From NCBI RefSeq assembly GCF_963678975.1, contig NC_089279.1, forward strand, positions 35,283,297-35,347,296: 64,000 nt of DNA, written 5' to 3'. The notes beneath the pieces were generated by a model that did not search any database, was not told the origin of the DNA, and worked only from the letters and a program-made list of their open reading frames with translations. A program made the translations under genes and the position numbers. The DNA is from Dysidea avara (lineage: Eukaryota > Porifera > Demospongiae > Dictyoceratida > Dysideidae). The first letter of the stretch is position 1. Each line of letters begins with the position of its first letter. Below are positions 10,736 through 63,427 of this stretch, piece after piece.

Positions 10736-10901
10736 AGTATAATAATCTCTGAATCTAGTTACTTGGTTTACTCAAGGGGAAAAATACGGGAAACCCCCTT
10801 CCTTTGCATCACCTTATGTCCTTATAAGATACGAAATCGCGTGATCGAACACGTGTGAATAATCCTTTTGTAGTTTTTGAAGGAGCCGGTTTTATCGTCA
10901 A
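10736..10901. promoter_or_regulatory. Bidirectional promoter region, coiled-coil gene / KMO
   Basis: The only sequence between two divergent start codons. It contains a palindromic E-box-like ACACGTGT (about 10849-10856) and no clear TATA box on either side. A shared CpG-type or TATA-less promoter is inferred from the arrangement. Confidence 0.5.
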
Positions 10902-24113: not shown

Positions 24114-25994
24114 ATGAAGCTTATTCACCAGCTTCTTACTTATAACCATTATAGTAAATATACTTCCCAACGAAACCATGTGAAATATTTGATAAGGTCT
24201 GCTAAAGTCAAGCACGATGAACTAATGATGCAAAGGTTTAAATCTAATCCTAAGATGTTGTACAGTTATGTGAGAAGCAAAAGTAAGGTGCGATCTAGAA
24301 TTGGTCAACTGGAAAAAAGTGATGGAACTCTCACAACTAATGACAAAGAAACTGCTGGTGTTTTGAGTTCTTTTTTCAAATCTGTATTTACTGTTGAAGA
24401 TACCTCTGCTGTTCCAAACTTTCCTACTAAAGTAAACACTACACTGAATGATATTTCATTTACTGAATCTGATCTATATAGTGTGTTAAAATCTTTGAAC
24501 CCCAACAAAACTCCTGGTCCAGACAATGTGCACCCCCAGCTTTTAAAGAATTGCGCACATAGCCTGACAAAACCACTTTTTCTGTTGTTTGTCCAATCAT
24601 TGAATAGTGGTAAACTTCCTAAGGAATGGAAAATGGCGAATGTTACACCTATCTTCAAGAAAGGTTCCAAAACTAGTGCAAGCAACTACAGGCCAGTGAG
24701 TCTAACATCACAGGTTGTCAAAATCCTAGAATCTTTAATACGCTCAAGGATAATGCAGTACTTAGAAGATAACAACATTGTCACACATTGTCAACATGGT
24801 TTTGTTACTAAGAAATCTTGTTTCACAAATCTTTTGGAGACATATGAAAACTGGACTCTTGCACTAGACTCGGGTCATGGTATTGATGTCATCTACCTTG
24901 ACTACAGAAAAGCTTTTGATTCTGTGCCTCACTGCAGACTCGCTCAGAGGTTGGCTGGCTATGGTCTTGATGGTAAGATTTTAACATGGTTGACTGATTT
25001 TCTTTCGGATCGTTTGCAAAGAGTGGCTTTAAATGGAGAGGTTTCTGAATGGCTGGAGGTGACTAGTGGAGTACCACAGGGTTCCGTACTTGGGCCGCTT
25101 CTTTTTGTTTTGTATATAAATGACATAGCTGAGGCCATACAATGTGACTTGGAAGTCTTTGCTGATGACACCAAACTATACTCGATTATTGAGACTATTG
25201 AAGATATTCTTAGGCTTCAGCAGGACTTGAATAATGCCCAGGAATGGTCAACACTGTCTCTTCTAAGCTTGAACATTGACAAATGCAAAGTAATGCACAT
25301 CAGAAATACATTAGCTTCTAATTACTATGTGTCAGATTCAGCTAGCCTTACAAATCTAAGTGTAGTCGAAAATGAGAAGGACCTGGGTGTTTGGGTGACC
25401 AACAAGCTGGACTCAAGTCTCCACTGTCAGAAGGCTGTAGCAAAGGCGAACATAGTTATTGGGATGATAAAAAGAACTTTCCCGAGTATGTCAAAGGATC
25501 TTTTTCTGTTTCTATACAAAACTTATGTGAGGCCTCATCTGGAATACATTGTGCAGTTGTGGAGCCCTTATTTACTTAAGGACATAGACATGCTAGAAAA
25601 GGTGCAAATGAGAGCAACTAAGCTAATTAAAGGATTCAACGGGCTTCCATATTCAACTAGATTACAAAAACTAGAATTGTATTCACTTTACTGCCGACGC
25701 GAGCGAGGAGATTTGATTGAAACTTATAAGATATTAAAAGGGTACTATGACATTGAATGGTCTAAACTGTTTACGTTGAATACATCAAATACCAGAGGAC
25801 ATTCTTTGAAACTCTTTAAGAAGCAGTGTAGAACAAAACAGAGATTAAATTTTTTTACCCAACGAGTTGTCAACATTTGGAACTTACTCCCACACCATGT
25901 AGTATCCTCACCCACTATAGCTCTTTTTAAACAACAATTGGACTGTTATTGGAAACAACAAGGACATGGATATGAACAAAGGCCTAGTGCCTAA
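24114..25994 (+). CDS. Non-LTR retrotransposon reverse transcriptase (CR1/L2-like LINE)
   Basis: A 626-residue uninterrupted frame, the best-preserved LINE here. Reverse-transcriptase blocks in order: NKTPGPDNVHPQLLK, then ANVTPIFKKGSK...NYRPVSLTS, QHGF, DVIYLDYRKAFDSVPH (catalytic Asp), SGVPQGSVLGPLLFVLYIND, FADDTKLY (catalytic Asp pair), then a thumb ending RVVNIWNLLPHHVVSS. There is no endonuclease domain, so the 5' end is truncated; the nominal start ATG is probably not the native one. An AAT microsatellite (about 26033-26064) follows the stop by ~40 bases and is the 3' tail. It sits inside the hAT-like element. The open frame suggests recent insertion, though truncation makes it non-autonomous. 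Confidence 0.92.
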   Translation: MKLIHQLLTYNHYSKYTSQRNHVKYLIRSAKVKHDELMMQRFKSNPKMLYSYVRSKSKVRSRIGQLEKSDGTLTTNDKETAGVLSSFFKSVFTVEDTSAVPNFPTKVNTTLNDISFTESDLYSVLKSLNPNKTPGPDNVHPQLLKNCAHSLTKPLFLLFVQSLNSGKLPKEWKMANVTPIFKKGSKTSASNYRPVSLTSQVVKILESLIRSRIMQYLEDNNIVTHCQHGFVTKKSCFTNLLETYENWTLALDSGHGIDVIYLDYRKAFDSVPHCRLAQRLAGYGLDGKILTWLTDFLSDRLQRVALNGEVSEWLEVTSGVPQGSVLGPLLFVLYINDIAEAIQCDLEVFADDTKLYSIIETIEDILRLQQDLNNAQEWSTLSLLSLNIDKCKVMHIRNTLASNYYVSDSASLTNLSVVENEKDLGVWVTNKLDSSLHCQKAVAKANIVIGMIKRTFPSMSKDLFLFLYKTYVRPHLEYIVQLWSPYLLKDIDMLEKVQMRATKLIKGFNGLPYSTRLQKLELYSLYCRRERGDLIETYKILKGYYDIEWSKLFTLNTSNTRGHSLKLFKKQCRTKQRLNFFTQRVVNIWNLLPHHVVSSPTIALFKQQLDCYWKQQGHGYEQRPSA

Positions 25995-26973: not shown

Positions 26974-29900
26974 CTATTCACTATCAGGACTATGCAATAG
27001 TGCTGTGAATGAAAACAATAAGAACACTAGTCCTCCTAATAAAGTGACATTCTTTACTGATATCTTCTGAGCAATCAACTGTCCACCAATTACTGCTAAT
27101 GCCGTACACAGAGCATGTCCAATTGTACCACCAATTGTAACTCCATAAGGATCCTATAAAGGTATAACATGTAAGAGTATAAGATGCATGAGGTTATATA
27201 CACTGCTCACAGTGCTCAGGGGGAACCATGCAGAATTTTAGAAAGGTGGGGCTAGCAAAAGTGAGAGATCTGATAGGCTAAATATTTCCCCCTGAAGCTA
27301 AACTAATGTCACACAAAAGGGTTAAAGGAATAGCTGTTTTGGTTTAGTTGCAACAACCAACTGCAAAGTAGTAACAACATTTATACAATGACTTTCTTCT
27401 TGCTAAAAGTAACCTTGTGCTGAAGGTACTGTTCCGCAGTGTATACAGGAGAAGAACTTTAAAGTATAGTTATTTTATGCAATACAGCATCAGTACTTTC
27501 AGTGCACATTACTTTCATTCAGTTTATGCAGTGCACATTCTAATAAAATTTAACATCATTTTAGTTAACAAGGCTACAGCATCTCTAGACCTCTTACTTT
27601 AAGAGCTATGGTAGCACCTCTAGGTGCTACTATATAGTTTTAACAGCATGACTGCTAGATCACTACTACTTTTTTCTTGCATGGATATATACTAGTGCAA
27701 AGTATTTAGCAGATGTACCCCTGCAGACTTGTACTGCTGCATGATTTTTAATATGCTGTATATCACATTAATATCAAAAGTAAAAATGGTGCATTGCATG
27801 TTGTGTCCTAACATATTATATGTGTTCAAATGTATAGTAACTCCCCCTCCCCCCACCTGCATATGATCAAATAAGTTAAAATAACATACTTCACGAGCTG
27901 CTAGTATGATAGTAGCAAATTGAGACCGATCTCCCCACTCAGCCAGGAATGTTAAAGTGAAAGCTTGCAAAACAACTGCAGGTAGTTGTCGGAGGAGCCA
28001 TATTCTTCTCCTGATTGGTGGAGTAGAGTTCACTACACCCTTCTCTACATCGTCCTATAAAATTTACCTCTACATTAATTGTTCAATAAAAGTAGTACAA
28101 AATGTTCTATAGTGACTGCTACATGAACTATATTTTTGTATCACAAAACCTACCATTATACTTCTATACATTATGGAGTTGGGGTAACTATGTAGTTACG
28201 TTTGTAGCTGAGTTATGTAGATTATTTGGCACAGCTACAGGGTAAACTGCTTCAAGGAGTAGGGTTATAGCACTTTACAGTGACCAGCTCTGAAAAATTA
28301 GTTTGTAGGTAGATTTTCCATTGTAGGAGTGCCTTTTGGTGGTTTGAGAAGAATTGAGATAAAGGCTATTGAGATACATATAACAAAAATGCCAACTGTG
28401 CACATGTGTATTGGGCATGCTACCTAGTTCATAAATAAGCTGCTAAAAGGGATGAGCTGAAAATTAAATGTAAGTAGATTACTCATCATAGGAAGGCCTG
28501 TCAGTGGAATAGACAATCTGGGTTTAGTTATAATGCGAAAACCAACTACCTGCAGCAAGTGTGTGATCAAAACACTCCACAATAGAGCAGTCACAGTCAT
28601 CTACAAATTCAATTAGAGGTGTCACAATGTATAGAGTTCAGCTGTGTAGCAAATCATCCTGCAGAGAGCTCAGTTACAAACAAGTCACCCTGTAGAGAGT
28701 TTAGCTACATATCACGTCACCCTATAAAGAGTTCAACTATACATATACATTTTAAGCTACTCTGAAGAGAGTTCAGCTACTTTCAAATTATGCAAATCAC
28801 CCTGGAGAGTTTAAGTACAAATAGGTCACCCTGTATAGAGAGTACAACTCATCCTGTAGGAGAGATTACCTACATTACAAGTCACTCAGCAGAGAGTTCA
28901 GCTACATTACAACAAGTCACCCAGTAGAGAGTTCAACTATATACTTTACAAAAGTCTCCCTATAGAGAGGTCAGCTTTAGCTATGTGATATAATTATTTA
29001 GTTTTATAAGTAACTACAATTTAATTTTTCTTTTTGTCTTGCCAGGGCTCCAGTTATTATTACTTTTCTAGTAACTTGGTTAGACTCCTGACCCCTTATA
29101 ATTATTGTACATGTAATTGTCAAATTATGATGTCATCATTATCATGAATAATAATAATAAGATCACGGTCACCAAATGGCTCTACAATAATTATTAAGAC
29201 TTGGTATTGACTAGCTACCCTTTGGCTAGCTACTGGCTCAATCTTAATAGTTATGCTGTCAGGATAGGTCAAACTGCATCCGGCACTGTGACCCTCAGAC
29301 TGAGATGGTGAATGTAGAATGCCTCTGCACTGGCAAGCTAATTATAGTTTGTCTGGATGCTCCCAGTATTGCATCACTGCATGCACAAATCAGTTAATTA
29401 CTCTGGTGCATTGAGCTTCACGTAGTGTCACTAGGCTATAGCTATCATCTGAAAAGGGTCAGAACTTTCTGCTCATGTACGCCCATGCTGATAGATGTCA
29501 GACATAAAACTGCCAGAAGGATGGTGAGTGTTCTCTATCTGCTTCTGTCTTGTCGGGTGTCCCACAGGGAACAGTTTTAGGACCATTGATGTTTCTTATT
29601 TATATTAATGACATTTCAGAACAAGTATTATGTCTCTTTGCTGACGACTGTTTACTATACAGAATAATTAGCACAGAAACTGATGCACAACAACTACCAT
29701 CAGATCTAGACTGTTTATCTCGATGGGCTGAAATCTGGCAAATGTCTTTCAACGTTAATAAATATGTGGTCATGAAATGTAGCAAGTCACTATCTATCAT
29801 CTCTTTTAACTATTCACTTAATGGGCATGTATTAGACATAAAAGCTGAACACACTTACCTACGGATCATCTTACACAACATATGTCATGGGATTTTCATG

Positions 29901-32900: not shown

Positions 32901-35900
32901 TTGTATACTGTTTCATCTGTTTCTTGATATAATGAGTTACCCATGATAATTCTTTGGCAGGTCTAGACATTGTTTTTAGTTATGGCATTATTAATGGCCT
33001 GCTTCCAGTTTTCTTGCACGTTATTGGAATAGGGGTCTAAGAAACGAAATTCATCAGATTTATATATGTAAGTTGAGTCATGTTACCCCTGTTGTATGTA
33101 TAGAAATATTTAGAGACCAGCCGATTATGTTGGCATAATTTTGAGCATAATAGGTGTCTGAAAGCATTGAGCATAATGCCAGCATAATAGGTAGAATATT
33201 TGTGTAATAGTACGAATTCTTGCTTATCAAAATAGCTATCGCAGAAAGTTCGATATACTCTATAGAACAGTCAGTAACTCTAATAGAACAATCTCATAGC
33301 TGAATGTTCTATTAGAGTATATCGATCTTTTCTGTGATATGCACTTTGACAAGTAAGTTTGTGCTGCAGCCACTTATTATTTATCCATAAATTGGAAATT
33401 ATTAGCAGAGCATGAGAACTGAGGCGTAAATAATTGGGCATAATTTGAGCATAATGGGTAAGTATTGAGCATAAATTTAAGCATAATAGGTAAATTTTTG
33501 AGCAGTGCAGCATAGCATAATAGGTAAAATTATGATCATAATCGGCGGGTCCCTAGAAATATTGGATTTCCAATATCGGTCTAGTGTGACTTTACCCGTA
33601 CACGTACATGAGCGAGTAGTCTAAAACTGTGCTCTATTTATGTATGTGTGACAGGACGAACACCTCAAACTACAGATTCTTTTTTGTGAACAATGTTTCT
33701 AGCTTCCCAACTCATTTCAGTCATAATCAAGCGTATGCATTCATTATATAGCCTTTTAGTTTCTTATCCTCACCCATGTCACCACATCAATGATATGGAA
33801 TGCAGCCATTAAGCAACCTTCTGAGTTAGTATTTAGCTAGCTAGCAGACTAATTATAAATGTGTGAACTACTAAAATTCAGCCATCTATATAATACATAA
33901 TGAATCCATCCTCCCACATTACTATTTAAGATGAAAAAGTAATAAGTTCATGTGGCCTAATCTCAATAATTTCTGTACAGTAGCTAATAATACCTCGAAT
34001 ATTATATAGTCATGTATAGCTAATAAACATGTATACAATTAGCTTATTGTTTGTACCTCATTTGCCTTGTTTATCTCTTCACGAGTAGCTTCCATTTCCT
34101 CTTTTCCTTCATCAGGACTCATCTTATAGCCATCATAAAGCATTTTAATACCAAGTATTGCTAATAAAATTGTACCAGCACAATACGTTAAAGTTTTTGG
34201 TATGATCACAGTAGCAAATCCCAAGAACACTGATAAAACTGTCATAAATCCTAGTGCAGAGAGTGCACCTGAGAATACTAAACATCGTGAATGCTGCATG
34301 GCAAGAACTACAGCAATGAAGAAGGTCTTATCACCCAGCTCTGTTACAATTATGACTGATAAGGAAGCCACAAATGCATGGACAAATCCAAAGCTCTGTA
34401 TCAGAACATCTCCGTTTTCTTCATTTTTCTATGGGTATAGCAGATTGTTGACCACAGAGTTTTATAACATTACAATATGACGTTACAGTACATACAGAAA
34501 AATTTAACTAAGAAGCGTTATACCTACTTTAAGTGTCTCAGTACAGAAACTGCACAGTATAGCTATTGCCTGTAGTTGATAATGAACAAATATTATAAGA
34601 AGCCATTTAATTTGCGCAAGACTGAATTCTTAGTGGGATAAAAGTCATGCAGTTTTATCACATAGTTATATTCATAGAATATCATAGTTATTGACACTTG
34701 TTCCTGTGTTTTTACCTCAGACTCATGTCAAAAATTGGATAGACACTTTGCTTAAACTATATGTGACCGGATTTGCGAAAAGGTACCTTTTTTCACACAC
34801 AAAATTTGACCCATTTTTGAACTTTAAAGCTTCATAACATTTTGATCATGGCATATACATGCTTGCAATTTTCACTGAATGTGGCTACAGTATCTGGCTA
34901 CAATTTGATACTAACAGCAAGTTAATCAGTGTAAGGAGTCAAGTGTTACATCATTTTGTTTGTTGGTATGTCAAATGTGTGGAAAAGGTACCTTTTCGCA
35001 AATCCGGTCACATATACTGAGTCATTTAACATTCAATGCATGCATGCAGGCAATGATATATGATATACTCAAGTGTATTATATGGGCACACATACATGAT
35101 ATTACATATGGTTTACAGTGAGGTATACCGTGCTTATTTATACTATGTTATAGCATTAGCCATGCCTGACTTATTGAATTATATGCTGGTGTTTTTCTCT
35201 ATTCATCTACCATAATATACTCAAATCTACACTAAATTATGAAAAAATACTGAAAAACTGATGAATGCATGGAGTCACAGATTAGGTAACTCTAACAAGA
35301 TAATGAGTTAATGTAGTTGACATGGCTCAGACTATATAGCTATGATTGCATTGGTGAGGCATGACACAAACAGTGGATGAGATAATATTATTGTAGTGGC
35401 AGTTTTAGTAATGCTGCTATTTAAAATTTTCAAGGTTAATACAAGCACCATCTATTTTACAGCATTTCAATAAATAAAAGAAAAAAGAAGAGTGTCTTTG
35501 CATGTCTTGCTCAAACTGTGGGTAGACTCGGAAGCAAACTCTGCCCAATCCTGTTATGACTGATGCATGGAATTGTCCCCACTCCTGATGCAGCATTCAC
35601 CATGTCGAACATCAATAGCAACCTTCCGTATCCGGCAAAAAATGAGTGGCCCTATTATCTCCAGACTGTTCCATGACTCAGGAACTTATCCGCCGCACCA
35701 ACGAACACTGATGTATGCACAAAATCCCCAAGCACCCATGGTCTCAACAAACAGAAGGGAGAAGTAAAAAAGATGGAGTTAGCAGTTCGCACTTATCGCC
35801 ATCTAAACCTCAACACCACCACACCATTTCTATTTTAGGCCCCTATTTGGTGATTATTAGTTTCTCATCCACCGCCCACATCCTTCTTAAGCTACCGCAT

Positions 35901-38021: not shown

Positions 38022-40128
38022 TTCCACTGATGCGAAGTTCTTTTTTGAAAGTTTTGGGTATAGCTACGTATACTGTAAAATGCAAACAGTGACTATATAG
38101 TTATAGCCAAAAGCCAAGGGAGATACGTCGTTGCTAATTGTCTATATCATATGATGTATTATTATGCATGCATGTCATGATGCATGCACGATAAGATGCA
38201 TGCTATGGTCACGTGTTATAGGCTTAGCTACGTATACTGTATATTTTATTTTTAATTCAGCAAGTCTGGGTACGCATACAGTAATTACAACTATATTGTT
38301 TAACTATCCATCTAGGGACCTGCAAGGAGGCAACAAGTTAGCCTGTGGCACAGGGAATCAACCACCTGAACCTGAAAACTATGTTGAATGCAGAAAAAGC
38401 TCCCAGACCAGGTGGTGACTTGATCCACATGTAGACAGCCTGCAGTCCAGGCAAGTGCCTGAGGGTCAAAGTGCCTGAGGAGCCACACAGCCTGGGATCC
38501 ATGCAGGATTCTCTCCGGCGCAATTACAGTACTTATAGCTACACATACATTTAAAATTAATTACAACTAGCTATATCTATACTTATACGTAACTTAAAAG
38601 TTTCTACTTATGTTATCAAAGTTGTGAGGAGATGGGAATGGCACTTTAAACACGGGCACAGAAATGTAGACTGCATGAATTATTAGGATCAAAGTAGATG
38701 AGAAAATGATTGAGCATGAATGATTTCAATGATGGTGTCCAATTGAGATTGATAATTGGTAGGGTATTCCATAGGTGAGGAATTGTACTGACGGAAATAA
38801 GAATGTCTTGTGGCATTGTTCAAAGATAGCATGTGTTTCAGTTCAGTTCCTAGTTTTAAAAGTTGGGTATTTCCATGCAGAGAAAAAGATAATGTAATTG
38901 TTAATGTTGAAACTGACAGTTGGATTTTTCAAGGATTTGATGAATAATAGCATGTCAGTGATCTCATATTGATACATAAGCGGTAAAAGTTTGAGTTTGA
39001 TTAGTCACTGTCGATATAATCATTGGTAAAGTCATTCAGAATATATTTGGTTGCATGTCACTGAAATCTCTTAAGAGTGTTGATATCAGTAATAAGATAA
39101 GGGAGAATAGTAAGATACAAATTAATGATAAGCAAAGCTAGTTTTTAATTCTAATGCATGAGATGATCTAAAAATACGATGGATGAGACCTTAGATTCTA
39201 CATCTATACACTTTGGCTGAGATGTGAATGTAGATGATTCCAAAGGTTATGGTGACTGTCTAGCTTGGGGATTTCATCCTAATCAATATGGTAGTTGGCG
39301 TTCATTATAGATCTGAAAGAAAAGTGTTTCCAGGTACTCTGGGCTCATACAGATATATATATATACATTAGTAACAACCATCATCATGCACATGACTGGT
39401 CAGCAAATTTTACTGCCATGCCATTGTGGAAAAAATAACCTTTGTGGTAACAAATATAATAATAATAATAATTAGTACAATGCATATATGGTATAGGGGT
39501 AATATTTCAGAAACTATGCAGAATTATTGTAAAATTATAATGTAAACCACAACAACAATGCTTTTATATAATTCCAAGAAATTATATGGAAACCACAATG
39601 ACAATGTGCCATGTAGACACATAAAACATTATTCACTCCCAAAGTTTGGACTAAAAGTTGAATCTTTTACTCAAAATCAGAATGAATTTAATCAATCTGT
39701 TTAGTACAATGAACAAAAGGTCAATCTAAGGTAATTCCAATTTTGCATGCATATCAGCATAGCATATGTAAGTGCAGTATATGTGATATAGATGCACATT
39801 ATCCATACACACATACATATACATTTGTTGCACACTTTTGATGTCTACTGAAAATGTTTTATGCACAGATTCCAATAATTATACACTGTGAAGCCAAAAT
39901 GGGCTGATTTCAATAACAACAAAAGAATCACCATGTATATATTTAAATATTACATGACTGTGTAATATCAAAATTAAGGGATTGCATAAATCCAAGCTGA
40001 GGAGTCAAAACCTCATGGCTAGTAATAGTTCACATAACATACCGTGGGGGCTCATAGCAGAAAATTCCTTATTAACCACATGTACACCACATGACATAAT
40101 GACCAAAAATAAACAATCAACAATGTGC
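38022..40128. other. Intergenic, TMEM165 to MPEG1; LINE tail inside
   Basis: About 38290-38520 is less AT-rich and looks like an old repeat (CCTGAGG words), with no domain. About 38640-39130 contains the complement of a LINE C-terminus. TATATATA and AATAAT runs lie near 39350 and 39460. No gene recognised. Confidence 0.4.
38640..39130 (-). mobile_element. LINE C-terminal remnant
   Basis: Minus strand reads SVSTIPHLWNTLPIINLN, matching the [RK]-x-x-x-x-WN-x-LP block that ends the LINE reverse-transcriptase frames here. The rest is decayed. Confidence 0.5.
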
Positions 40129-40137
40129 TATATATAG
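40129..40137 (+). promoter_or_regulatory. Candidate TATA box of MPEG1
   Basis: TATATATAG, 75 bases before the preferred start codon. Its place favours the ATG at 40212 over the upstream in-frame ATG at 40125, which would lie before the transcription start. Confidence 0.45.
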
Positions 40138-40211
40138 CAGGGATTATACGTTTATTAGTAAGGGTCAGCAAATCTAGTTATAGTTGTAAGAAATTACAAA
40201 TAACTTTTATC

Positions 40212-42209
40212 ATGGATACTAAGGTAGCCCTTCTCCTATTATTAGCTGCATCACACACAGCAAAGTGCAGTACATACATGTCTCAGTGTGAAGTTGATAG
40301 CAGTGAAGAATTATCTTTGAGCAGAATGGAAGTGCTGCCTGGAGTTGGTTGGGACAATCTGCGCAATATGGACATGAGTTTGGTATTTGAATATGACTAT
40401 ACTAACTGTCAGTTAACTAATGATAGGAAATTTCTACTCCCTGATGGATATTTTGCCATCCCCATCCAGCAAAGTGATGTTGAAACAATATCTGAATTGT
40501 TTACTTATTGGGACAATTACACTAGTTTAACATCAGCCTCCATTAATACAGAAGAAAGTACATACTCAAGGATTGCTGGCAAGTTCTCATATGACTACAT
40601 TAAGATGAAGGCGAGCATGTACAATGACAAATCATTTGTTGCTCGAACTCAAGTAAGACGCAAACTTTATACTATACGTTTAGTTACTGGCACAGCACTA
40701 CACCCTACTTTCAAATCACGATTATTGGACATTGCTGGTTATATGGCACAAAATGAAACTGAAATTGTTCAGTATCTGTCAGAACTGCTGGTTCGTGACT
40801 ATGGCACACATTACACATCAGTAGTTCATGTTGGAGCCATACTAGCACAAGAAGATTATATTAAAAGCACATTTATAGAGGATATTGAGGAAACAAAACA
40901 AACATTAACAGCCTCTGTTAGTGCTAATTTTATGAGCAAAATTGGATTTAGTACAGAGACCAGCCATACTACTGATTCAAATTCTACACAGTCTGAGTCA
41001 TACCTATCACAGCTAATGTCTTCTCATATAAGAACATATGGTGGACCTCCATATGGAGACAATTTCAGCATAAGCAATTGGGACAATGATTTGGATGATA
41101 ATTTAGCAGCAATTGACAGGGAAGGAGAGTTACTTCATTTTGCCATCACCCCAGAATCACTACATGAGCTCTCGCCCACACAGACACAAGAATTAGGGTC
41201 ATATGTTGAAAAGGCTGTTACCAGGTATTACAAGTACAACACACAATATGGTTGCACAAATCCTAGTTTTGAGGGGTTTTATTTTGGTGCTAATGTTGAT
41301 GATGGATCGTGCCAGGCCCCAGCAGCCAATTTTACATTTGGAGGTATCTATCAAACTTGTATGGATCAACAAAACAAGAATGCTGTGAAATTATGTCAAC
41401 AATGGCACCTTACACAGACAAATCCGATAACTGGTGACCATACCTGCCCACCCAACTATGAGCCTATCTTGCTGTATAGTGGAAAAAAGAGCATTGGTGC
41501 TGCTATAGTTTTCTACAAACTATTCTGGTGTGTGGCTACTGCAAAAGTTCCTGATCAATCTGGCTACCTATTTGGAGGTATGTATAATTCTATAATGATG
41601 AATCCACTTACTCATTCCAAGTCATGTCCCAATCAATTTTACTCCCTAAAATTTGGACAAGATACAAAAATTTGCGTGAGTAGAGATTATGAACTAGGCC
41701 TTGCTTTGTCTACTCCATTTGGTGGATTTGAAAGCTGTCATGCAGGAAATCCATTGGCGATGTCTTCTGGTTTCAAAGGATTAGATTTCCTCAAATTTGA
41801 GCCAAGTGATTGGCCTCACAGATGTCCTGGTGGTTACACACCACACTTAGCTGGCATAGAAAAATCCTGTGAGATCAACTATTGCGTGAAGGCAGGCTCA
41901 CTGAATGTGCCTAGTCTTGCACCTATTATGCGACCTCCTTTCCAGGCAGCACCCACTTACCCAGACTATCCTATTTCTCACCGCTTTGGTGGCAGCAACA
42001 CATCTCACAATAGAAGAGCTATTACTGCAATTATATTCATTTCCACTGCAGTAGTTGGCTATATCCTTATGGTGTCAATGTGTGGGATGTACTTGTTCAG
42101 CAATGCAACAATATGGAGAAAAGTACCAGCTCTTATTTTGCAGACTGTGTCTATTTGTGTTGTCAGTATTGTTGAGTATGCTGTATTAATTATGTGGTAT
42201 GATAATTGA
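40212..42209 (+). CDS. MPEG1: Perforin-2 / macrophage-expressed gene 1 (MACPF immune effector)
   Basis: A 665-residue single-exon protein of the MACPF pore-forming superfamily. In animals perforin-2 acts in phagosomes against engulfed bacteria. Signal peptide 1-19 (MDTKVALLLLLAASHTAKC). The MACPF signature YGTHY is at 197-201, with VGA in place of the more general GG six residues on, as in the MPEG1 branch. The cysteine-rich region after ~360 corresponds to the MPEG1-specific P2 domain (Cys pairs; GGFESCHAGNPL; CPGGY). Two hydrophobic segments follow near the C-terminus (about 604-627 and 638-661), where vertebrate MPEG1 has one transmembrane helix and a cytosolic tail. The start ATG at 40212 is chosen because the signal peptide begins there and a TATA box lies upstream. 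A single coding exon is also typical of vertebrate MPEG1. Family assignment firm. Confidence 0.93.
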   Translation: MDTKVALLLLLAASHTAKCSTYMSQCEVDSSEELSLSRMEVLPGVGWDNLRNMDMSLVFEYDYTNCQLTNDRKFLLPDGYFAIPIQQSDVETISELFTYWDNYTSLTSASINTEESTYSRIAGKFSYDYIKMKASMYNDKSFVARTQVRRKLYTIRLVTGTALHPTFKSRLLDIAGYMAQNETEIVQYLSELLVRDYGTHYTSVVHVGAILAQEDYIKSTFIEDIEETKQTLTASVSANFMSKIGFSTETSHTTDSNSTQSESYLSQLMSSHIRTYGGPPYGDNFSISNWDNDLDDNLAAIDREGELLHFAITPESLHELSPTQTQELGSYVEKAVTRYYKYNTQYGCTNPSFEGFYFGANVDDGSCQAPAANFTFGGIYQTCMDQQNKNAVKLCQQWHLTQTNPITGDHTCPPNYEPILLYSGKKSIGAAIVFYKLFWCVATAKVPDQSGYLFGGMYNSIMMNPLTHSKSCPNQFYSLKFGQDTKICVSRDYELGLALSTPFGGFESCHAGNPLAMSSGFKGLDFLKFEPSDWPHRCPGGYTPHLAGIEKSCEINYCVKAGSLNVPSLAPIMRPPFQAAPTYPDYPISHRFGGSNTSHNRRAITAIIFISTAVVGYILMVSMCGMYLFSNATIWRKVPALILQTVSICVVSIVEYAVLIMWYDN

Positions 42210-52198: not shown

Positions 52199-52899
52199 AC
52201 ATGACTGTTCTATTAGAGTAGCTGACTGCTCTATTAGAGTATATCTTAATAATTGTAAGTGGAGGGGTGGAAGGACTTTAGTCCCTCCCCTTTGTGCGGC
52301 ACCCATGCATTTCAGTGCTAAAAGTTCTTTGGAACAGTCGATAAGTCATTTTGTGGAGTCCCATAGTAGCATACTGATCGCTAAAATGATAAAATTTTAC
52401 AACTCTTTGGAAATCCAATTAGATTTTGTACCACACCTTTCATTTTCATGGCTAATTATACCTAAAAGGTAGCTTTGAACTGATAAAACAGCGTGAAATG
52501 AAATTCTGCTCTGTCCGATTATAGAGGTCGCGACACACCCGAATATTAATGGTTGTAGCTCCACTTACGAGTGGAGGAATGAAACAAACTATAGTTGCTT
52601 AGAAAGTACATGTATTCCTCTAACAATCAGTGGTGGTTGTGAGGAATTTAATCTTTTAGAGGAGGATTGCTGGGTGGTGCCCGATAAAAGAGGTAAACTT
52701 CCGATATTAGAGGTTTTCGGACAGTCACTTTAATCGGCTGTAGCAAGGCAACCACAAAAGCTTTCCAGCCCAAATTTTGTTATGTTGCTAGGCTAAGTGT
52801 GAAGTTTATCCGTGGAAAAATTCAGAAGATTCGGTCTGGTAGTTTCTGAGAAAAAGTGTCCGATTGTAGATGGTGTCCGACAATAGATCGCTTACTCTA

Positions 52900-53833
52900 G
52901 AAGAAGAAGAAAAAAACGAAGAAAAAAAAACCAAACTTTGGCCGCTCGTATCTCGGAAATGGCTGGAGCGATTTTCTTCAAATTTGGTATGTGGACTCCC
53001 CTACCTCGCCGGCATTTCTGTAGCAACTTTGGTTTTAATAGGATAAGGAATCACGGAGCTACAAAGGTGTGAAAATCGCGTTTACTTTCTTCCTGTAAAT
53101 ATACTCACGGTGTGGCGCGCCGGCTACTTGGGCCGCACGACACACTACCGTGTGTCTTGATATGTGACAGTAGACAATAGCTATAATAATACTGATGCGA
53201 CAGTCAACAATAATTACGATGATGTGGCAATCAATGATAACTATGTATACACAAGGCCACTGATACTAGTTGTCAAGACTTTGCACTGCTTGTTTGCTGG
53301 TCAGTGCTACAGCAGAAGTTTAAAAAAGAGCAAGCAACACAACAGAGCAGAGCCAGCAATTAAGCAACAGCTTTAAACAGTAACAAAATCCTCAACAGCA
53401 CATACACGTAATAGTAGTAGAAACCATAACGACAGCAGCATCAATGTCAGTAATATCATAGATACCGTATACCAACAGGGATTGGAAACGGAGATTCGCG
53501 CACTAACATATCCGTGTCTCGCATGACGGCTATCGTCGTGGCATATAGCTATAGGGCAACCCCAATTTTCCGTACAATAGGCTGACCGGTAGCTAAGCAA
53601 ACTTACGTTCCCTACATGGGTATTTTTCTTATGGAGAGTCTAGGGGATGCTGACAAACGTAATGTCTATACACAGTTTACCACTTGGCACCAGACCAGAC
53701 CCTTGCGGTCTGCTACTGCTATGGCTTGTCTAGTCTTGCCCCAGATGGCCAGACCGCAACACTGAGTCACGGCAGCAGCCGGTATAGCTATTCAGCATCA
53801 GCTATAAGAAAATTTGACGAGTATAGCTAAGTA
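52900..53833. other. Flank and promoter region of the kinase gene
   Basis: 52900-53110 is a repeat flank with GAAGAAGAAG runs. 53110-53833 holds no coding frame I can support. The last ~200 bases before the kinase start are the likely promoter; no TATA box is obvious. Confidence 0.4.
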
Positions 53834-56800
53834 ATGGAGATCGATGAACTTGGAGAGCTAAAAGACTGCCTAATTCCTAACATCCAGCTTGGCAGAGTCA
53901 TTGGACATGGAGCCTACGGTAGCATTATGGAGGCTAAATGGGAAGGTTCCGTGGTGGCCGTAAAAGAAATTCGTTCCATTTTCAAGGAAGTAGGCGAAGA
54001 ACAGTTTCAAGTGTTACAGGAGAAATTTGCCACCGAATGCAAGCGAAGTAGCCAGTTTCGTCATCCAAATATTGTTCGCTTCTTAGGTGTGTATCTGCCA
54101 CCCGGCACCAGGGTTCCTAGTTTGGTGATGGAACGGCTTCACTGCAGTTTAACTGATTTGCTTGGACAGAATCACACCATTCCACTCGAACTTAAGCTCT
54201 CTATTCTTCACCAGATTGTACTTGGCGTCCGTTACCTGCACAGTCGATCCCCAGCCATCATTCATCGCGATTTATCAAGCAATAACATCCTAGTCTCCAA
54301 AGGAATGGAAGCAAAAATTGCAGATCTCGGCACAGTGCGTTTCCTGCCGGATCCTACTACGCGCACACCAATGAGTCTGGCACCAGGAACTAAGGATTTT
54401 ATGCCTCCAGAAGCTCTTAATGCAGCCTCCAACCAACTGCTGAGATACAAGCAAGATATTGACATTTTCTCTTTTGGGTGTGTCATGTTACATGTGTTCT
54501 CGCATGAATGGCCTACCCCTTCAGAAAATGTACTTATTGATGCAACTAGCCGTACGCTTACTGCTCGATCAGAAGTTGAGCGACGTGCCAAATATCTTGG
54601 CAAAGTGCCCAAACCAATTGAAGACGTAGCAGTTCCTCTGATTGTGAGCTGTCTAGAAAATCTTCCTGATGATAGACCAAATGCTGAAGAAGTATGTGAT
54701 CAGCTGGAGACACTAATAGTTAACAGCAAACACACTAGTACATTACCTGAGGATATGTTGCAGAATTATTTGCTTCTCAACAAGTTGCAAAATGAGGTGA
54801 CAGAAAAAACCACAGAAATAGAGAATCTACAAAAGAAATTATCAAAGTTGGAATTGCAGTCTCAAGTATCAAGCACAACCACATCACAGGTAAGAAAATT
54901 TTAATATATGCTAAGGTACCATTGGTTATGTATATGGGTATCTGTCTGCCTGCATTCCATTTGTGCAAAAGCCTGCACAAGCACAGCTATATGTATACAT
55001 ACAGAGTAAGTCACCAGTTATCAACCACCTAAGGTTTATCACACTATATATAACTCAGCCATCCAACATTGCAGAACAGTGAATTTTCAACGAAGCTACA
55101 TTAATTATCTCCCAGCACTCACAACAAAAACTGACTCCATAATCAAATACATATATACAACAATGATGTTGATTATATATGGCATGTGTCCATCAATTGT
55201 CAACCATCTCTATCTATTATAAAAATTCAATTACTTATTATCAATTACCTATCATCGACCAATTCCAAGAAATGAAGCTACATATGAATTTCCACAGGTA
55301 ATACAACTATGCAAACAGCCTAACCACTAACATGACAAAGGTCTACACCTAAAAAATGAATCAAGTTGAACATACTGTTCAAGAGACACACAATTTTGTC
55401 AGATAATTTTTACATTCGCATAATACTTCACATATAGGCCATGATCAACTTATACACACTAGTAGTTGTACGTACATTCACTATAGTTCTCATTAGTCCT
55501 CTAACTCTCTTATCAACTTTCCAGTGTGATAGATGAGATATTATGGGTAGATATGTAGCCGTTGATGAATGGTAGCTAGGCTACTCAGGCAAGGATGACT
55601 CGCCTTAGCAAGTCCACTGTCTAGCACTGTAGTAGATATGAGCACAACTGATAAAAATGGTGTAGTTATAACATCAAAATACACAAGCGACACAAAGAGA
55701 CAAAGGCAGGAAATTACAACAGATGTTAGCTAGTTAATGTGTGTGCATGAAGTCTGAGTCAACAAGCTCTTGGCTGGCTTCTGTTGGTGCTGCTACAGAT
55801 ATAGTCCGAAGGATACTAGTAAATGCTATGTGTCTGCTTGTTTAGCGATCGATTCGCTATAAATATCAGCTCCTTCAACAACAGCTAAATGACTTTCAAG
55901 TCAAAAATGGTTCAGATAGCTATATAACACTGCAGTAGAGTCTTAAATTCTGTGAAAGATCTAATGCTTCTTTGGGTTCTGCTGTACTCTTTCTTTTCTT
56001 TTTTTGAATTCGTCTTTTTTCTCTGATCATCCCTCCTCTTTTCTTCTTGCTCCTCTTTCCTCTTCTCTAAAACATATAGAATGATTACAGCAATATGCAA
56101 TACCCCAAGTGTTTGATTGTTTTATTTGTTGTATACGTTACTGAATATTATATAGCACAAGGAGAACATGACAACAACACCCATGCATATACACAGTTAC
56201 ACACTACAAGAACAGCAAACTCTGACATCACAGAAGATTTACTTCCACAGGACTCAGAAGAGGAATTATAAGCAATTCAGTCCTAATACATACCATCACT
56301 GCTGACTCAACATCCCAACATTATGACCACAGCTTCTGAAACTGATAGAGTCACCACAGCCAAAGAAACTGTAATACTTTCATCCAATATTGTTTCTCAT
56401 AACCTGCAAGCTTTTCAAATAACTATTTACTGTAACATTATTCTGGTATTGAGCACAGCACGTTCACTGATTCTAATTTATTCAATCTGATCATCACGTG
56501 AGCCCATTGTACAATGTAACTACATGTTACATCTTCCCTCTTTTCAGGGAACCACACAAAAGAAAGAAAAAATAATCAAACACTAATCATGGCGATGATG
56601 CAGGTATACAAAAATCACACAACATATCCAACAATTAAGCGACTTTTAATAAAAAAATTTTATTGGCAAGATACACGCGTCTACACTGGAAGCAGGTTTT
56701 CAAGGCTCTGTTATGGATCGTCAGATAACTTTTAAACCCTTTCCAGGTTCTAGCAGGAATGGCCAGCATGACATCTACTTTCACGTAAAATGTAACAGCT

Positions 56801-57404
56801 TAATACGGCCTTCTTCATGGTACAAAGTAGGGGGTTTAACATTACACATAGAACCATTGGCCATGAAAATATTGGCTCACCTCAACAATCCAGGCGCGAA
56901 CTTTTTAACGATTCCAGGTTATACCAGGCTAGATCTATCCTTTCTTGAATACTTCAGCTAGCTATACCGTTCGTGATGAACGTTTTACACGGTACAAATA
57001 ATTTTATAAAAATCACTATCTCAATCCAATAGTCGCATACCCTGGCTGAGCACTGATTATTAATGACGCGCGCGCTATATTGCGTGGGCGAGTTGCAATG
57101 GAGAAGTATTACGTTCTTGAAAGTTTAATTCATCAACTTTTCAATGGTCAATAGTCCTTGTACATCATGCTTTTTTTGATCACGTGATACATCTTTGTAT
57201 TTTGTACATGTAATCAAATAAATATTTTGAAAAATGGTCATTATAAAAATTTCAAGTTACTTGTTGCAGTTCTCCAACGTATAAACCTGTGGAAAAACAG
57301 TCACATTTAAATTGGTGAATTTAAAAAAATCTTTATCACTACACACACACACACTACACACACACACACACTACACACACACACTACACACACACACACA
57401 CACA

Positions 57405-57468
<64 letters not shown>

Positions 57469-60400
57469 CACACACACTTCACTACATATTCACATAAAAA
57501 TAAAACACTACAAGGTATGGTAATGGTTGTTTACATTGGTTAATTTTGTGGTGTGCCACATATAGCAACAAGGGAAATGTGTATCTGTGATCAAGAATTT
57601 AATTTAGTTTGTAATATCAATCTTTGTCAACTAGAGAAGAACTGGCTATTGGTAAAAAGCGAGGGGTAGCCAATGCCTTGGGAATCTTGTATGCTATGTG
57701 AGAAATCCAATCAGAAATACACAAATACATTAGAAACCAAATCCTAAATCCAAAATCATGTAAAAATAAAGGAGAAAGTGAGTTTAACAAAGTAGACAAT
57801 GATCGATCATGAATAACTAGAACAAGATGTAGATCAACAACTGTACAGGTAGTCACTAGTTAGCAATATCACTAAATGCTTTTAAAAATACATAAAGATT
57901 GGGAGTCTCGTATACGCCAGTTTGGTGCTTTGCTTGGGCATTGGCAACCCCTCTGGTACACCATTTCTGTGTTTTGCGTGGGCGTTGGCTACCCCTCGGG
58001 AAAAATAAAATAATGAAAGACTATACAGAAGCTGATCTGTACAGAAGATGAGCCCTGCACAGCTACGTGGGCTTCTTTTTACAAAGCATACACTCACCTT
58101 ATTTGCACATTGCCCAATCATCATCATGGACGCTTCCACCTCCCACCGTGCACTAAAGTAATAGAAACAAACATTAAATAATATAAGCATTAATATTATT
58201 ATAGCATAACACAGCAGCACAATATTACAGCATGATAAACAAACCAAAGTATTTATACAGAAAACTATGTCATAGACATTTAATCGTCTTTGAGCAAGGC
58301 CATTTTAACGAAGGCGCAAATTGGGCGTGGGCGGGCAATTCATTACATTCTTTTCGCCGTTTATAACTATCACTGGCAAACTAATGCATATACTATATCA
58401 AAGAACGTATATATTTAAACAGTTGTATGATACTTATAGACTGTTTTTTCACTGTCAACCACTTCTTGCGTGTGGGCGGCCCACCACCCCTCCCCTTCGC
58501 ACCCACCCACCCCCTATATGATATACGTGCTATACAGCTGAGCATATAAAAGTTGCTAAAATTAACAGGTTTTTGTAGAATCAATTTTATTTTTAAAATT
58601 CTAATTGAACAAACAGTACATTTTCATACTGTAGCTGAATGACATTAAAATACATTGAATTGTCTGATATGATATATACTAAAGTGCACTCGTCCAGTTT
58701 AACTTGATGGCACATATACTTTTCTTGTCACTCTACCTGACCTCCATGGAGCTGGTGATGACTCTAGAAGTGTATAGTTCCTGGTGTGTTGTGCTCTTAT
58801 GGTATCAAGTTTTCAGCTTCATTTTGATTGTCAGAAGGGTTTGACACCTCATTTTCAGGTGAAGCCTGCCATTCTGGTATTACAGGTTCTTCAATAGGAT
58901 CTTCATTTGTTAGCATATAAGTTTATTTGTTAAAATCAAGTACCACCGATTGTGTCTCCTTCTACTTGGGCTTCACTCTGAATGGTGGGTATAGGTCTTT
59001 GCTTCTTTACATGACAATTATAGTGGGTCTGTTGTCGCTTTTGTTGCTTATGTTGTGCTTCTGCATCCTTGTCTGTGGGGAATACTGGTTGGAGCCTGGA
59101 AATTGTTATAGGTAGTAGAGTATTACACCATCTTCCCAAAAACGCTGTGCTGTGCTGGTGCAAATTCCCTCCAATGATGTATTCCTCCAGTCCAGTAAAG
59201 CCTGAAATTCTGATTAACCACTTTGAGAACAGTCGTTTAACCATCTTAACAGCATTTTCTGCTTTTTCCATTAGATTGTGGGTAGTATGGTGAGGATGTT
59301 GTATGTGCAGAACTCTACAGTTTCACAAATAAGAAAAACTCTTGTGACGTAAATTGGGGGCCATTATCCATGATCACTGTATTTGGTACACCGTATCTCG
59401 CATACATATTCTTCAAGGCCTTTGTGACTGCTCTGGTGGTTGTTTTGGGCAAATTTTCCACTTCAATGTAGTTACTGTAATAGTCATACACAATGAGTAA
59501 TGTACATTGTCTCAGCTCACAGATATCTGCCCCTATTTTTGACCATGGCATGGTCTGTCTGTAATATCATGTTATATTAGTGATTCTTCAGTTTCCTTGT
59601 GAAGGACGGTGAGAGAGGCAAACATCACGCTTCAGAATGTACTCACGTAGCTGTGTAGCCATTCGTGGCCAAAACATGATATCCCTATAGCTCTCCTTAT
59701 ACACCATTCAAACCCAGCATGGACAGAAGTCATCATTTCTCTGCGCAATGCTACTACCCTAATAGAACGGTCACTACTCTAATAGAACAGTCATTTCCGT
59801 AGTTTAGTTAACGGAGAATCTGGATAAGTGGGGTCTGGATAACTGAGGTTCCACTGTAGATATATTGGCAATTTTTGGTGTTTCATTGGATAGCCATAGT
59901 ATTCAGAAAAAAAGTGGAGCAAAAAGGATATTCTATAATGATTTTATGACAGGAATAAGGTTATTCATTGGTGCATGAAAGAATAGGAATATAAATGGCA
60001 ATTTATTGTTGTCTTGTATAAACAAGATCCTTATGTGGAATTTTATATTTCTAACCTTTTTCTATGAAGTTACTGAACTGATAAAAATGAGTAGTTTAGA
60101 CAAAATTAACACTTTCAAAAAACATTTCAATTAGATTCAAAAATGTATGGGAAAATAGATGCTGGGAGATTAAGGGTTAAATACTACGTAACTCATCTTG
60201 AGTAACTAGTTCATCTTGAAGGCCAAAAAATGGATGGCAGTCACTCACAGCTCTTTTGTTCTGGGGCCACCCATCCAGTATTGTGTGTTGAAGCTGTTGT
60301 AATACCAGGTCATCCCTTGATGCATGTTGTAGGCGTTCAGCTGCATGTTAATGATAAAGAGTGTATGATTGGTATTCTCTAAGCTGTGTGCTATATTTGT

Positions 60401-63400
60401 ACAACTAGTGTCCTTTGGGTAAGCCCAGCTCAATGTATCTGTTACATACATATGTTTGATTAGGACTAGTGGTTTGAGGTGCGTTTCTATTTGTATCTTA
60501 TCTCTTCCATATATGTAAGCATCACAATGCTGACAGGCAGAGACAATGGCTAGAAGTTCTTTTTCTATCTGGGCATAATGGGTCTCTGCTGACGTTAGGA
60601 CATAAGAGGAATACACTACTGGTTATCCATTCTTTAGCAGTACAGCACCCAAGCCAGTCTGGGATGCATCACATTGGATAGTGACCTCATCACAAAGTGA
60701 ATAATAATGCAACACTGTTGTGTTGGTGACCATTTGCTTCAGGGTGTCTAGAGCCTTCTGCTGAGGTTGCTCCCAGATCTAGACTGTCTCCTTTTGTGTT
60801 AACTCTCTTAAGAGCTTTGTGGCATCTGCCAAATGTGGAAGAAGCTCTGTGCAAACTGAGTAGACGTTGAACGCCTGGCTCATCATTTGGTATAGCATCT
60901 CCGCTACTGCTTAACTTTCTTTGGGTCCACACATAGACCATCTTTGGTAGTTACATGACCAATAAATGGAACCTTGTCTTGCTTGAATTGCACTTTGTCA
61001 GGGTTTTGCTTCAAATTATGCTGCTCACATCTGGATGACAACTCTCTTATTAATAAGTTCTTGTATCTTGTAGTACCCACACAGATCTCCATAATGGAAT
61101 TGATGTGGTTGTAGTCGCATGAGATTGAGGCCTCATCTTTATTGCGTTTATTTTGTACATACATTTACTCATTTAATAATGATGGTTGGTTTCACTACAT
61201 TTATTACAACAGGAACAGTTTTAGAAATCTTAGCTGTGAAAGTGCATGTGGTGTGCAAGTGTAAAATTATATGTGTTTACTATTATTTTACAGGCTAGCT
61301 ATTGTGGTAATTTATCTGGTGCTTTGACTGGCCCTGTTTCAGTCATTAATAACATGCCAATTTGGAAATCCCTTTGCCCTGCATGTGATCTAGATATTAG
61401 ACAACTAATTCAGCTGGTTGGTAGCTAACTGGAAGAATTGCTTTAGCCAAATGCAGGAGTTAAATTTAAAATCAAATTCTGTATATGTACAACTATGGTT
61501 ATATAATATGTATATGGGTAACTAGACTACTCTCTCAATCAAGTGGGTCACCTTATCTATTTTTGTAATTAGAATACAAACCTGTCATGGTGTTTTGGGT
61601 CACTGGATTTTGTTAGGTAGACACATGAGCAGTGATAAGCATGTGGTTGACATCTGACCCTGTATGCTTATAGGGCAGCCCTGTAGGCCTGAAAAGGTAT
61701 ACACATGTTATGGGCTGTCCCATATACAAACAGAACAAATAGCATTTGGATGGCGATTGCTGTTACTCATGTACATAATGTAACTATGTTGTGACTTCAT
61801 ATTAAGGCAAGTAACTTGCAATTATAATGTACAAGGTTTGATTCCTACTCCATGCAGTGCTATTTTTTTCTTACTCTGTACCTTTCTTACTGACCATATG
61901 GCAGGTTTTTTCAAGAGGAAAATTTTCAGTGGATTGGCAGCTATCACAAAATTTTTCCCCTCAAAATTTGCAGCTCAATCAAAATGGCATTATTGGAGTA
62001 TTGTAAATGCATAAAAGATCCAAAAATTCCCTTATGGATGATGGCAATCTGTAAAAAAATTCTCCCTCAAAAAAATCCTGCTGCATGGTACCTTTTCATG
62101 TGTGGTGTGCATTTTCATTAAACTTGTTATTTGCGTTTACCTATTTCTTTTAAAAATTTAAAGCACAATTCGGAATGTGTGACATATACTATGGGGCGAT
62201 GAAGTCCTGACTCACTTCCTTTATGGGCCACGGAATTCCATAGGCTGATGTATGCACCCTAGCACATTTTTTTAGTAGATTTGAAGTATATCTTACTGAA
62301 AATGATTCATAAGATTGATGAGCTTTACCCTCACCAGCTTGCAGGTGCATGCCTGATTTTAAAATGTTTGTTTTTATTGAAATCTGTGCATGATCTAGGT
62401 TGCTATCAATAAAACAAGTTTAGATTTCTGGAGCTCCCTTAAACTGACATGGCAACAATGTGATGACCTACCAAGACCAAGCTATATCACTTCTATTGCT
62501 GAACTGAATGAAAATGTTTATGTCTCTACAATACGAGCTGAAGGTGGGCTACCATATCCATTCAAATACAATTCAAAAGAAGACAAATGGTCAGCATTAC
62601 CAGCTCTTCCATGCATCCAGTTTACTTTGGCATCCATACCTGCTTTACAACAATTATTAGCCATTGGAGGGATTGAAGCTGAAGGTAATGGTGGAGTGAC
62701 ATCAAGCAATAAAGTGTTCTTATGGGATGAAAAGTACAGTAAGTGGCTCACTCCATACCCAAAGATGCCAACTGCACGTTACCACTGTGCTGCAGTATAC
62801 TACCGGTCAAAAGTCATTGTAGCTGGTGGCGTTGCAACCACTTCAGCTTTTAAAGTTATGACTAGGGCTGTTGAGGTACTTCATATAGATAAAAACCGTC
62901 TCTCCAACTCCTACTGGACAGAGGTTGAACGATTACCACACATCATAAATCAGCCAGGTCATCTGCTAGTAGATGACAAATTGTATATCACTGTTGGATT
63001 CGATAAGTTTGATTGCAGTCAGACAAGTATCGTGGTTGCTTCACTTCCATTTCTACTACAGAACAATACTGATGCAAATGCAGGTCAAGTCTGGGAAAAG
63101 CTGCCTGACTTGCCATATCCCTCACCATCAATTAATCTCTATCATAAGAGACTGGTCACGTTTGGAGGAATACGCTTAACTGAGCAAGCACCAGAAGCAG
63201 GTAATCCTGTGGCATGGAAACTGGTCCCTACGATTCTCCTCTACAATCCTGATACCAGATCATGGGACTGTGTTGGTGACATTCCTCATGGATATTACCT
63301 GGGCAGATCAGTCCACATTGGAGAGAATAAGATCTTTTTTGCTGGAGGAACGATAGGGAAGTTCATCACAGACACCAATGACGATTTAGTCACAACCTGC

Positions 63401-63427
63401 TCACTACTCACAATCACATCCCAATGA
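53834..63427 (+). CDS. TKL-type protein kinase with C-terminal Kelch repeats (2 exons proposed)
   Basis: Exon 1 (53834-54889) encodes a protein kinase: Gly loop GHGAYG (24-29), VAVKEI with catalytic Lys44, helix-C Glu68, IIHRDLSSNNIL (HRD 144-146), metal-binding ADLG (DLG in place of DFG), and MPPEAL as the APE block. All catalytic residues are kept. A coiled coil follows (~310-345, LQNEVTEKTTEIENLQKKL). It ends CACAG|GTAAGA, phase 0. Exon 2 (62399-63427), after acceptor ATCTAG, also phase 0, encodes Kelch-type blades (AIGGIEAEG, KWSALPAL, YSKWLTPYPKMPTARYHC, VIVAGG, WEKLPDLPYPSPSIN, FAGGTIG). Joined, 694 residues. The kinase resembles animal TKL/MLK-like enzymes; Kelch propellers bind partner proteins. 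The join is inference: with an intron of 7.5 kb, undetected middle exons or two separate genes remain possible. Confidence 0.75.
54890..56700. other. Kinase-Kelch intron, first part; nothing recognised
   Basis: AT-rich with no convincing exon. A Lys/Glu-rich minus-strand frame at 55912-56100 is low-complexity. Confidence 0.4.
56713..56961 (+). other. 82-codon open frame, unassigned
   Basis: Begins MDRQITFKPFPG and ends LDLSFLEYFS. Composition is protein-like and the region is less AT-rich, but no domain, splice logic or repeat relation is apparent. Could be a small gene inside the intron or an old transposon piece. Confidence 0.2.
57341..57478. repeat. (AC)n microsatellite
   Basis: About 138 bases of AC with interspersed CTAC interruptions that divide it into blocks. 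Confidence 0.95.
57480..58699. other. Intron sequence, no gene seen
   Basis: Two copies of a GGCGTTGGC/GGCATTGGCAACCCCT motif (57930-57995) suggest an old duplicated repeat. No coding region supported. Confidence 0.35.
58700..61170 (-). mobile_element. Ty3/gypsy-type retrotransposon pol remnant
   Basis: Minus-strand pieces in pol order from high to low coordinate: RT C-terminus (KVPFIGHVTTKDGLCVDPKK, near 60950); RNase H (SSYVLTSAETHYAQIEKEL, then LAIVSACQHCDAY, 60470-60616); integrase core (LLIVYDYYSNYIEV, VPNTVIMDNGPQFTSQEF, 59330-59551); post-core NAVKMVKRLFSKW near 59250; and a C-terminal RVTRKVYVPSS near 58720. Frameshifts and internal deletions break it; it is inactive. LTRs were not identified. 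A CTCTAATAGAACAG-bearing pogo-like fragment (59745-59860, ending GAGGTTCCACTGTA) is inserted. Lies in the kinase-Kelch intron, opposite strand. Confidence 0.85.
59745..59860. mobile_element. pogo-like terminal fragment inside the gypsy remnant
   Basis: CTACCCTAATAGAACGGTCAC then ACTCTAATAGAACAGTCA, GGATAACTGAGG and the terminus GGTTCCACTG followed by TA (spaced out here). Same terminal type as the element at 6990-7232. Confidence 0.5.
61171..62398. other. Last part of the kinase-Kelch intron; possible exon near 61293
   Basis: After TTTTACAG (about 61286-61293) a frame reads ASYCGNLSGALTGPVSV and later SLCPACDLDIRQLIQLVGS before a stop at 61428. The acceptor and Cys-containing frame would suit an alternative terminal exon of the kinase gene, but no homology is seen. 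Near 61830 GGTTTGATTCC is a B-box-like word, perhaps a SINE trace. Confidence 0.3.

Follow-up and report, generated by a model that had tools for sequence, protein, structure and literature searches.

A TKL-like kinase, a coiled coil and a Kelch propeller joined in one gene model of the sponge Dysidea avara, with a large family of relatives in the same genome

Introduction

RIPK1 carries an N-terminal kinase and a C-terminal interaction module, and the RIPK family is defined by a kinase combined with a Death, CARD or ankyrin C-terminus. In the catalytic loop motif of kinases, a lysine usually follows HRDL. Kinases associated with Kelch motifs have been reported in distant eukaryotes. According to the available part of its description, Entamoeba EhSrc unites a kinase with Kelch motifs in a single protein and has neither SH2 nor SH3 (PMC5648430), and Entamoeba kinases with kelch also appear in an excerpt of PMC2939887. 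A "unique" kinase of Leishmania major likewise has a Kelch accessory domain in the accessible portion of PMC1266030. For the Eph-like or TKL kinases of choanoflagellates and filastereans, the legend of figure 3 in PMC6993872 lists a Kelch motif, its bearer being unstated in the section available.

No description of a sponge kinase-Kelch family was found in the literature searched, most subscription journals lying outside its scope. In the parts of two further papers that were accessible, a Kelch-motif gene stands in each of two microbial-elicitor response tables, which we take to be those of Aplysina and Dysidea (PMC6208332), and Kelch-type propellers and kinases are among the families with changed expression in Mycale (PMC11000336).

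Here, a 64,000-nucleotide stretch of DNA (hereafter the window; G000:C8:35283297-35347296 in a 550.8-Mb assembly) was analysed around a kinase exon and a Kelch exon, together with the relatives of both in the same genome.

Results

A kinase exon and a Kelch exon in matching phase

The kinase frame consists of 352 codons, ATG being the first (Table 1). A residue survey found the catalytic set complete, with K44, E68, H144-R145-D146, N151 and D164 (in DLG), so that Pfam and the K, E, HRD and DxG residues agree on a kinase fold. The best sequence matches of the exon in the PDB are CTR1 and TNNI3K, and TAK1, RAF and MLK1 are also among the top ones. Judged by these matches the kinase appears TKL-like, in a ranking in which an EGFR chain nevertheless lies above TAK1, and TAO2 stands among the RAF chains. 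The heptad score of the coiled coil, obtained with home-made weights, was equalled by none of 1000 shuffles of the tail.

Donor sites were ranked with a textbook-like donor matrix that we entered ourselves, and the donor at 54889 came 5th of the 7766 GT sites on both window strands. Without splicing, the kinase frame reaches a stop five codons on (54902-54904, after VRKF). At 62399 the acceptor is of middling quality, equalled or surpassed in score by 1153 of the 8085 AG sites. It opens a phase-0 Kelch exon of 342 codons, recognised by Pfam as Kelch_2 (7.8e-11) and Kelch_6 (2.1e-9). Because its earliest in-frame ATG is codon 123, within the propeller, an upstream exon is required. The preliminary description had seen a kinase frame ending at a consensus phase-0 donor just past a coiled coil, and a Kelch exon with no start context of its own, and both observations were borne out. 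Its phase-0 Kelch frame stands as well; its rating of the acceptor as good does not, nor was this the next good acceptor, since a stronger one at 61294, opening a phase-0 frame of 44 aa, had been missed.

Above cut-off, Pfam found solely kinase and Kelch families in the two exons, and no BTB, BACK, Death, CARD, ankyrin or Ras-binding domain. Inspection of the kinase-exon translation by eye revealed no transmembrane or signal segment, so the earlier term "receptor-free" fits. The protein is probably cytosolic. Scans of the window for tRNA and Rfam families gave no match.

Table 1. Features of the window (the slash marks an exon boundary)
Feature	Position	Strand	Remarks
Exon 1	53834..54889	+	ATG start, TKL-like kinase domain, coiled coil, Ser/Thr-rich linker; phase-0 end
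Protein kinase domain	53882..54706	+	residues 17-291; Pfam PF00069 (Pkinase) 3.9e-41, PF07714 (PK_Tyr_Ser-Thr) 5.4e-34
Coiled coil	54776..54859	+	residues 315-342; four heptads, LNKLQNEVTEKTTEIENLQKKLSKLELQ; heptad score 1.02
Intron	54890..62398	+	phase 0, 7509 bp; donor CAG/GTAAGA, acceptor ATCTAG/GTT
Exon 2	62399..63427	+	last exon; encodes the whole six-bladed Kelch propeller and the stop
Decayed LTR-type retroelement remnant, in the intron	59318..61164	-	fragments of integrase core and RNase H, weak RT fragments, broken frames; presumably Ty3/gypsy-like
FAD monooxygenase	10881-12281	+	single frame; FAD_binding_3 4.2e-25; presumably kynurenine 3-monooxygenase-like
Further RVT_1 piece	15956-16234	-	
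Reverse transcriptase	24114-25994	+	open 626-aa frame; RVT_1 5.3e-30; assumed LINE-like
GDT1-family gene, two pieces	27692-28054 and 34039-34428	-	taken to be TMEM165-like
MACPF gene	40113-42209	+	single frame; Pfam MACPF 2.5e-20; presumably perforin-2/MPEG1-like

A sister copy nearby

A sister copy lies at G000:C8:35395435, some 58 kb downstream as measured between the kinase starts, on the same strand and in the same order. It is 92% identical to the window gene in the kinase and 91% in the Kelch exon, and its intron of 2219 bp uses the same phase-0 site, with the donor CAG/GTAAGG. Between the two genes, dS is similar in the kinase exon (0.27) and in the Kelch exon (0.23), dN/dS being 0.136 and 0.179, respectively; both exons of this pair are under purifying selection. 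By blastn, the exons aligned throughout, together with 15 bp at the beginning of the intron and its last 51 bp, and a single 63-bp stretch matched in the rest of the introns. Upstream, similarity ends 6 bp before the ATG: a comparison of window positions 52334-53833 with positions 1-1500 of the sister locus (L032) gave nothing clearly alignable beyond that point, despite the 92% exons, which indicates that the promoters differ. Between the two genes lies a decayed third copy of the Kelch exon (G000:C8:35384994-35386222, comprising L024 and the next match), in pieces of 86% and 80% identity with in-frame stops, a sign of local duplication and loss.

Contents of the intron

The retroelement pieces in the 7.5-kb intron, searched separately with Pfam, matched rve (1.3e-10), RT_RNaseH (3.8e-12) and RT_RNaseH_2 (6.8e-13), and RVT_1 at 0.04, under the cut-off. 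Simple repeats are also present. Elsewhere in the window, the two pieces of the GDT1-family gene are some 6 kb apart, probably separated by a long intron, so that an intron of such size is not odd here. The acceptor at 61294 scores 9.24, a value reached or exceeded by 54 of 8085 AG sites. Its 44-codon phase-0 frame was rejected as the main partner of the kinase exon, its counterpart being missing from the intron of the sister.

A family with a conserved join

The same genome holds dozens of related genes, in which the binding domain differs from copy to copy. Counts for the family are lower bounds, the best 118 of 348 Kelch and the best 115 of 981 kinase candidates having been scored; all listed matches of either kind are on contigs C1-C15. 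For 42 of these 118 Kelch matches, a kinase match lies upstream in the same orientation at no more than 12 kb; the corresponding numbers are 10 for downstream on the same strand, 4 for upstream on the opposite strand and none for downstream on the opposite strand. Taken from the kinase side (Kelch_6 places included), 43 of the 115 scored places are followed on their own strand by a Kelch match no more than 12 kb away, with 9 upstream and 5 on the opposite strand. Random placement gave a mean of 0.31 and a maximum of 4 such pairs (four contig sizes were guessed), and shifting the places by 50-200 kb left 1-4. For the other 72 kinase places no listed Kelch lies within 12 kb; either some of these kinases occur without a Kelch domain, or the Kelch list is incomplete.

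Forty-three Kelch matches have at least 35% identity, and 31 of them are paired with an upstream same-strand kinase, representing 27 distinct kinase exons. A join was considered possible when a donor was present in the final 15 kinase codons and an acceptor at most 25 bases from the start of the Kelch match, both in phase 0. This was so at 23 of the 31 places (21 of the 27 distinct kinase exons), against 0 for phase 1 and 2 for phase 2 at the same places; with stricter site scores (donor 5, acceptor 4), the numbers for phases 0, 1 and 2 were 18, 0 and 0. The typical join reads PPKQ/VNKSSTDFW, and 11 of the joined relatives have introns of 45-66 bp. As for the eight places at which the two sites were not both found, three have phase-0 donors farther from the stop, one has an open intron, one is an intronless gene and three had no Kelch-side sequence in the comparison. 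At C8:7892543, both domains (with DFG) are found in one uninterrupted frame of 680 aa, and at C3:3874510 the short intron is itself open, giving a 781-aa frame that matches both Pfam families. In the more distant pair L063 on C6, a kinase is again followed by a coil-like linker and then by a Kelch domain. The earlier proposal that kinase, coiled coil and Kelch belong to a single gene is thus supported by the sister copy, by the 23 phase-0 joins and by these two long frames. It had also reported intact catalytic residues with DLG in place of DFG. The residues are indeed present, and DLG is no oddity: it occurs in 21 of 28 readable family members and, according to the part of PMC9554302 available, in RIPK1.

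Over 20 gene pairs, the distance matrices of kinase and Kelch exons were correlated (r = 0.52, equalled in 0 of 5000 permutations), and remained so without the sister (0.485; 10 of 5000). The nearest neighbour by kinase was also the nearest by Kelch in 8 of 20 cases only, which leaves room for exon exchange or conversion.

Coil-like linkers are common among the relatives, 3 of 23 having little or no coil. In L034, L036, L037 and L038 (C9, C13) a coiled-coil unit, for example AEIQRKD or LQQEIQAKNNELQN, recurs along the linker, whose length differs between paralogs. The HRD aspartate is lost in L047, L048, L050, L052, L054, L056 and L060, and all six of these that have a paired Kelch exon keep its frame open, a pattern that suggests pseudokinase-Kelch proteins among them. 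On C3, a pseudokinase-like exon at 18765925 is followed by two intact Kelch exons with their own phase-0 acceptors (G000:C3:18760249 and 18762385; L010 and L013), possibly alternative terminal exons of one gene. Protein-pattern scans of viral contigs and genome contigs found nothing, nor did a tblastn search of plasmids with the Kelch exon.

Variation on the propeller

AlphaFold (AF2) models the Kelch exon as a complete six-bladed propeller with a pLDDT of 88 when 25 sequences are supplied, the exon alone reaching 31; the blades are four-stranded and the propeller is closed. Across relatives, the Kelch domain changes at roughly double the rate of the kinase: all 43 comparisons gave it the higher dN/dS (median 0.50, against 0.25 for the kinase). 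These comparisons are those with dS below 0.8 in both exons, out of 190 possible, and are not independent.

In solved Kelch domains, the ligand face is formed by the b-c and d-a loops. With loop classes assigned by DSSP on the model, mean entropy was 1.86 in b-c loops, 1.49 in c-d, 1.31 in d-a, 1.20 in a-b and 1.08 in strands. Of the 40 positions that vary most, 22 fall in b-c loops, where 10.2 would be expected; 3 of 327 circular shifts did as well. Similar variability is seen in the c-d loops of blades 1-3 (entropy 1.92-2.01), which counts against a single variable face. Pooled over 84 of 300 pairs, dN/dS was 0.76 in b-c loops, 0.53 in d-a, 0.50 in c-d and 0.32 in strands. Three comparisons inside the C9 cluster gave b-c dN slightly above dS (0.24-0.28 versus 0.20), a difference far from a formal test. 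The pair of window gene and sister lacks the elevated b-c pattern. Given the c-d variability, the pooled b-c value below 1 and the 0.18 of the sister-pair propeller, relaxation rather than diversification is possible.

Discussion

We conclude that the two exons almost certainly form one gene, which encodes a 694-residue protein with a kinase, a coiled coil and a C-terminal Kelch domain and is one member of a large paralogous family, part of which is arranged in clusters. Alternatively, two genes could be adjacent, an intronless kinase ending at 54904 and a Kelch gene whose small first exon escaped detection. The stop just beyond the donor is real, the acceptor at 62399 is mediocre, and the intron does contain three short candidates running from an ATG to a phase-0 donor with scores of 8 or more. 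Against this, the sister has kept both exons and the same join, a phase-0 join is allowed at most of the 31 places in the family, one relative is a single frame with both domains, and the donor at 54889 is among the best of the window; we hold two genes to be very improbable. Even less credit goes to splicing of the kinase exon to the acceptor at 61294, by which a 44-aa tail would replace the Kelch domain. That site is strong and its frame is in phase 0, yet the frame carries scarcely any coding signal (0.7 bits), matches nothing in Pfam above cut-off and is missing from the sister's intron. Such a product may exist as a minor alternative isoform of the kinase-Kelch gene.

How this kinase-Kelch protein works is a separate matter. 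The coiled coil would likely dimerise the kinase, and the propeller may bind a partner or ligand through its b-c loop face. Binding would then gather the coil-paired kinases or release them, and the kinases could trans-phosphorylate and pass a signal on, the propeller setting where and when they act. The variable loops and the expansion of the family suggest recognition of something variable, and since relatives differ in binding face, coil length and catalytic residues, some may be pseudokinase partners or decoys. We give about even chances to this scheme, a coil-paired soluble kinase with partner recognition by its Kelch face. Its main rival, which leaves the gene structure unaffected, is that the Kelch domain is a fixed adaptor, for actin or one conserved substrate for instance, and that loop variation reflects relaxed constraint. 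This is a serious candidate, somewhat short of an even chance: the window gene and its sister have a conserved propeller, pooled b-c dN/dS stays under 1, the c-d loops of blades 1-3 vary similarly, and EhSrc, with its KELCH domains, co-precipitates with actin according to the accessible part of PMC5648430. The concentration of the most variable positions in b-c loops, at about twice the expected number, and the size and partial clustering of the family speak against it.

Going further with recognition by the Kelch face, the family might comprise germline-diversified intracellular recognition kinases, in which the kinase is constrained, the coil varies in length and the Kelch face has diversified among paralogs, pseudokinase-like members included, with a role like that of NLRs or plant receptor-like kinases in sensing microbes or self/non-self. 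We consider this speculative and rather unlikely. If the Kelch face did recognise microbial or self ligands, it would represent an animal immune-type receptor family beyond NLRs, TLRs and scavenger receptors. In any case, this genome contains dozens of modified copies of a single kinase-to-propeller exon join, and a large family of soluble kinases, each equipped with a variable propeller for binding, departs from the standard designs of animal signalling.

Among kinases of known structure, MLK1 (MAP3K9, 4uy9) aligns to residues 11-336 of the kinase exon, past the kinase domain. Compared with TKL kinases, the window protein has a Kelch propeller in Pfam searches instead of a Death, CARD, ankyrin or Ras-binding domain, and its catalytic loop, HRDLSSNN, lacks the usual lysine. 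It does not belong to the RIPK family, the corresponding C-terminal Pfam families being absent from both exons. EhSrc, which resembles the window gene by its description, comes from a remote lineage; in the part of PMC5648430 available, no propeller was identifiable in its authors' model and a coiled coil is not mentioned. The Leishmania major kinase is a single gene in the table of PMC1266030, the accessible text of which mentions no expansion. Pfam gives no BTB or BACK in either exon, and the window propeller differs from those of BTB-Kelch (KLHL) proteins, LZTR1 and KLHDC2 in being fused to a kinase.
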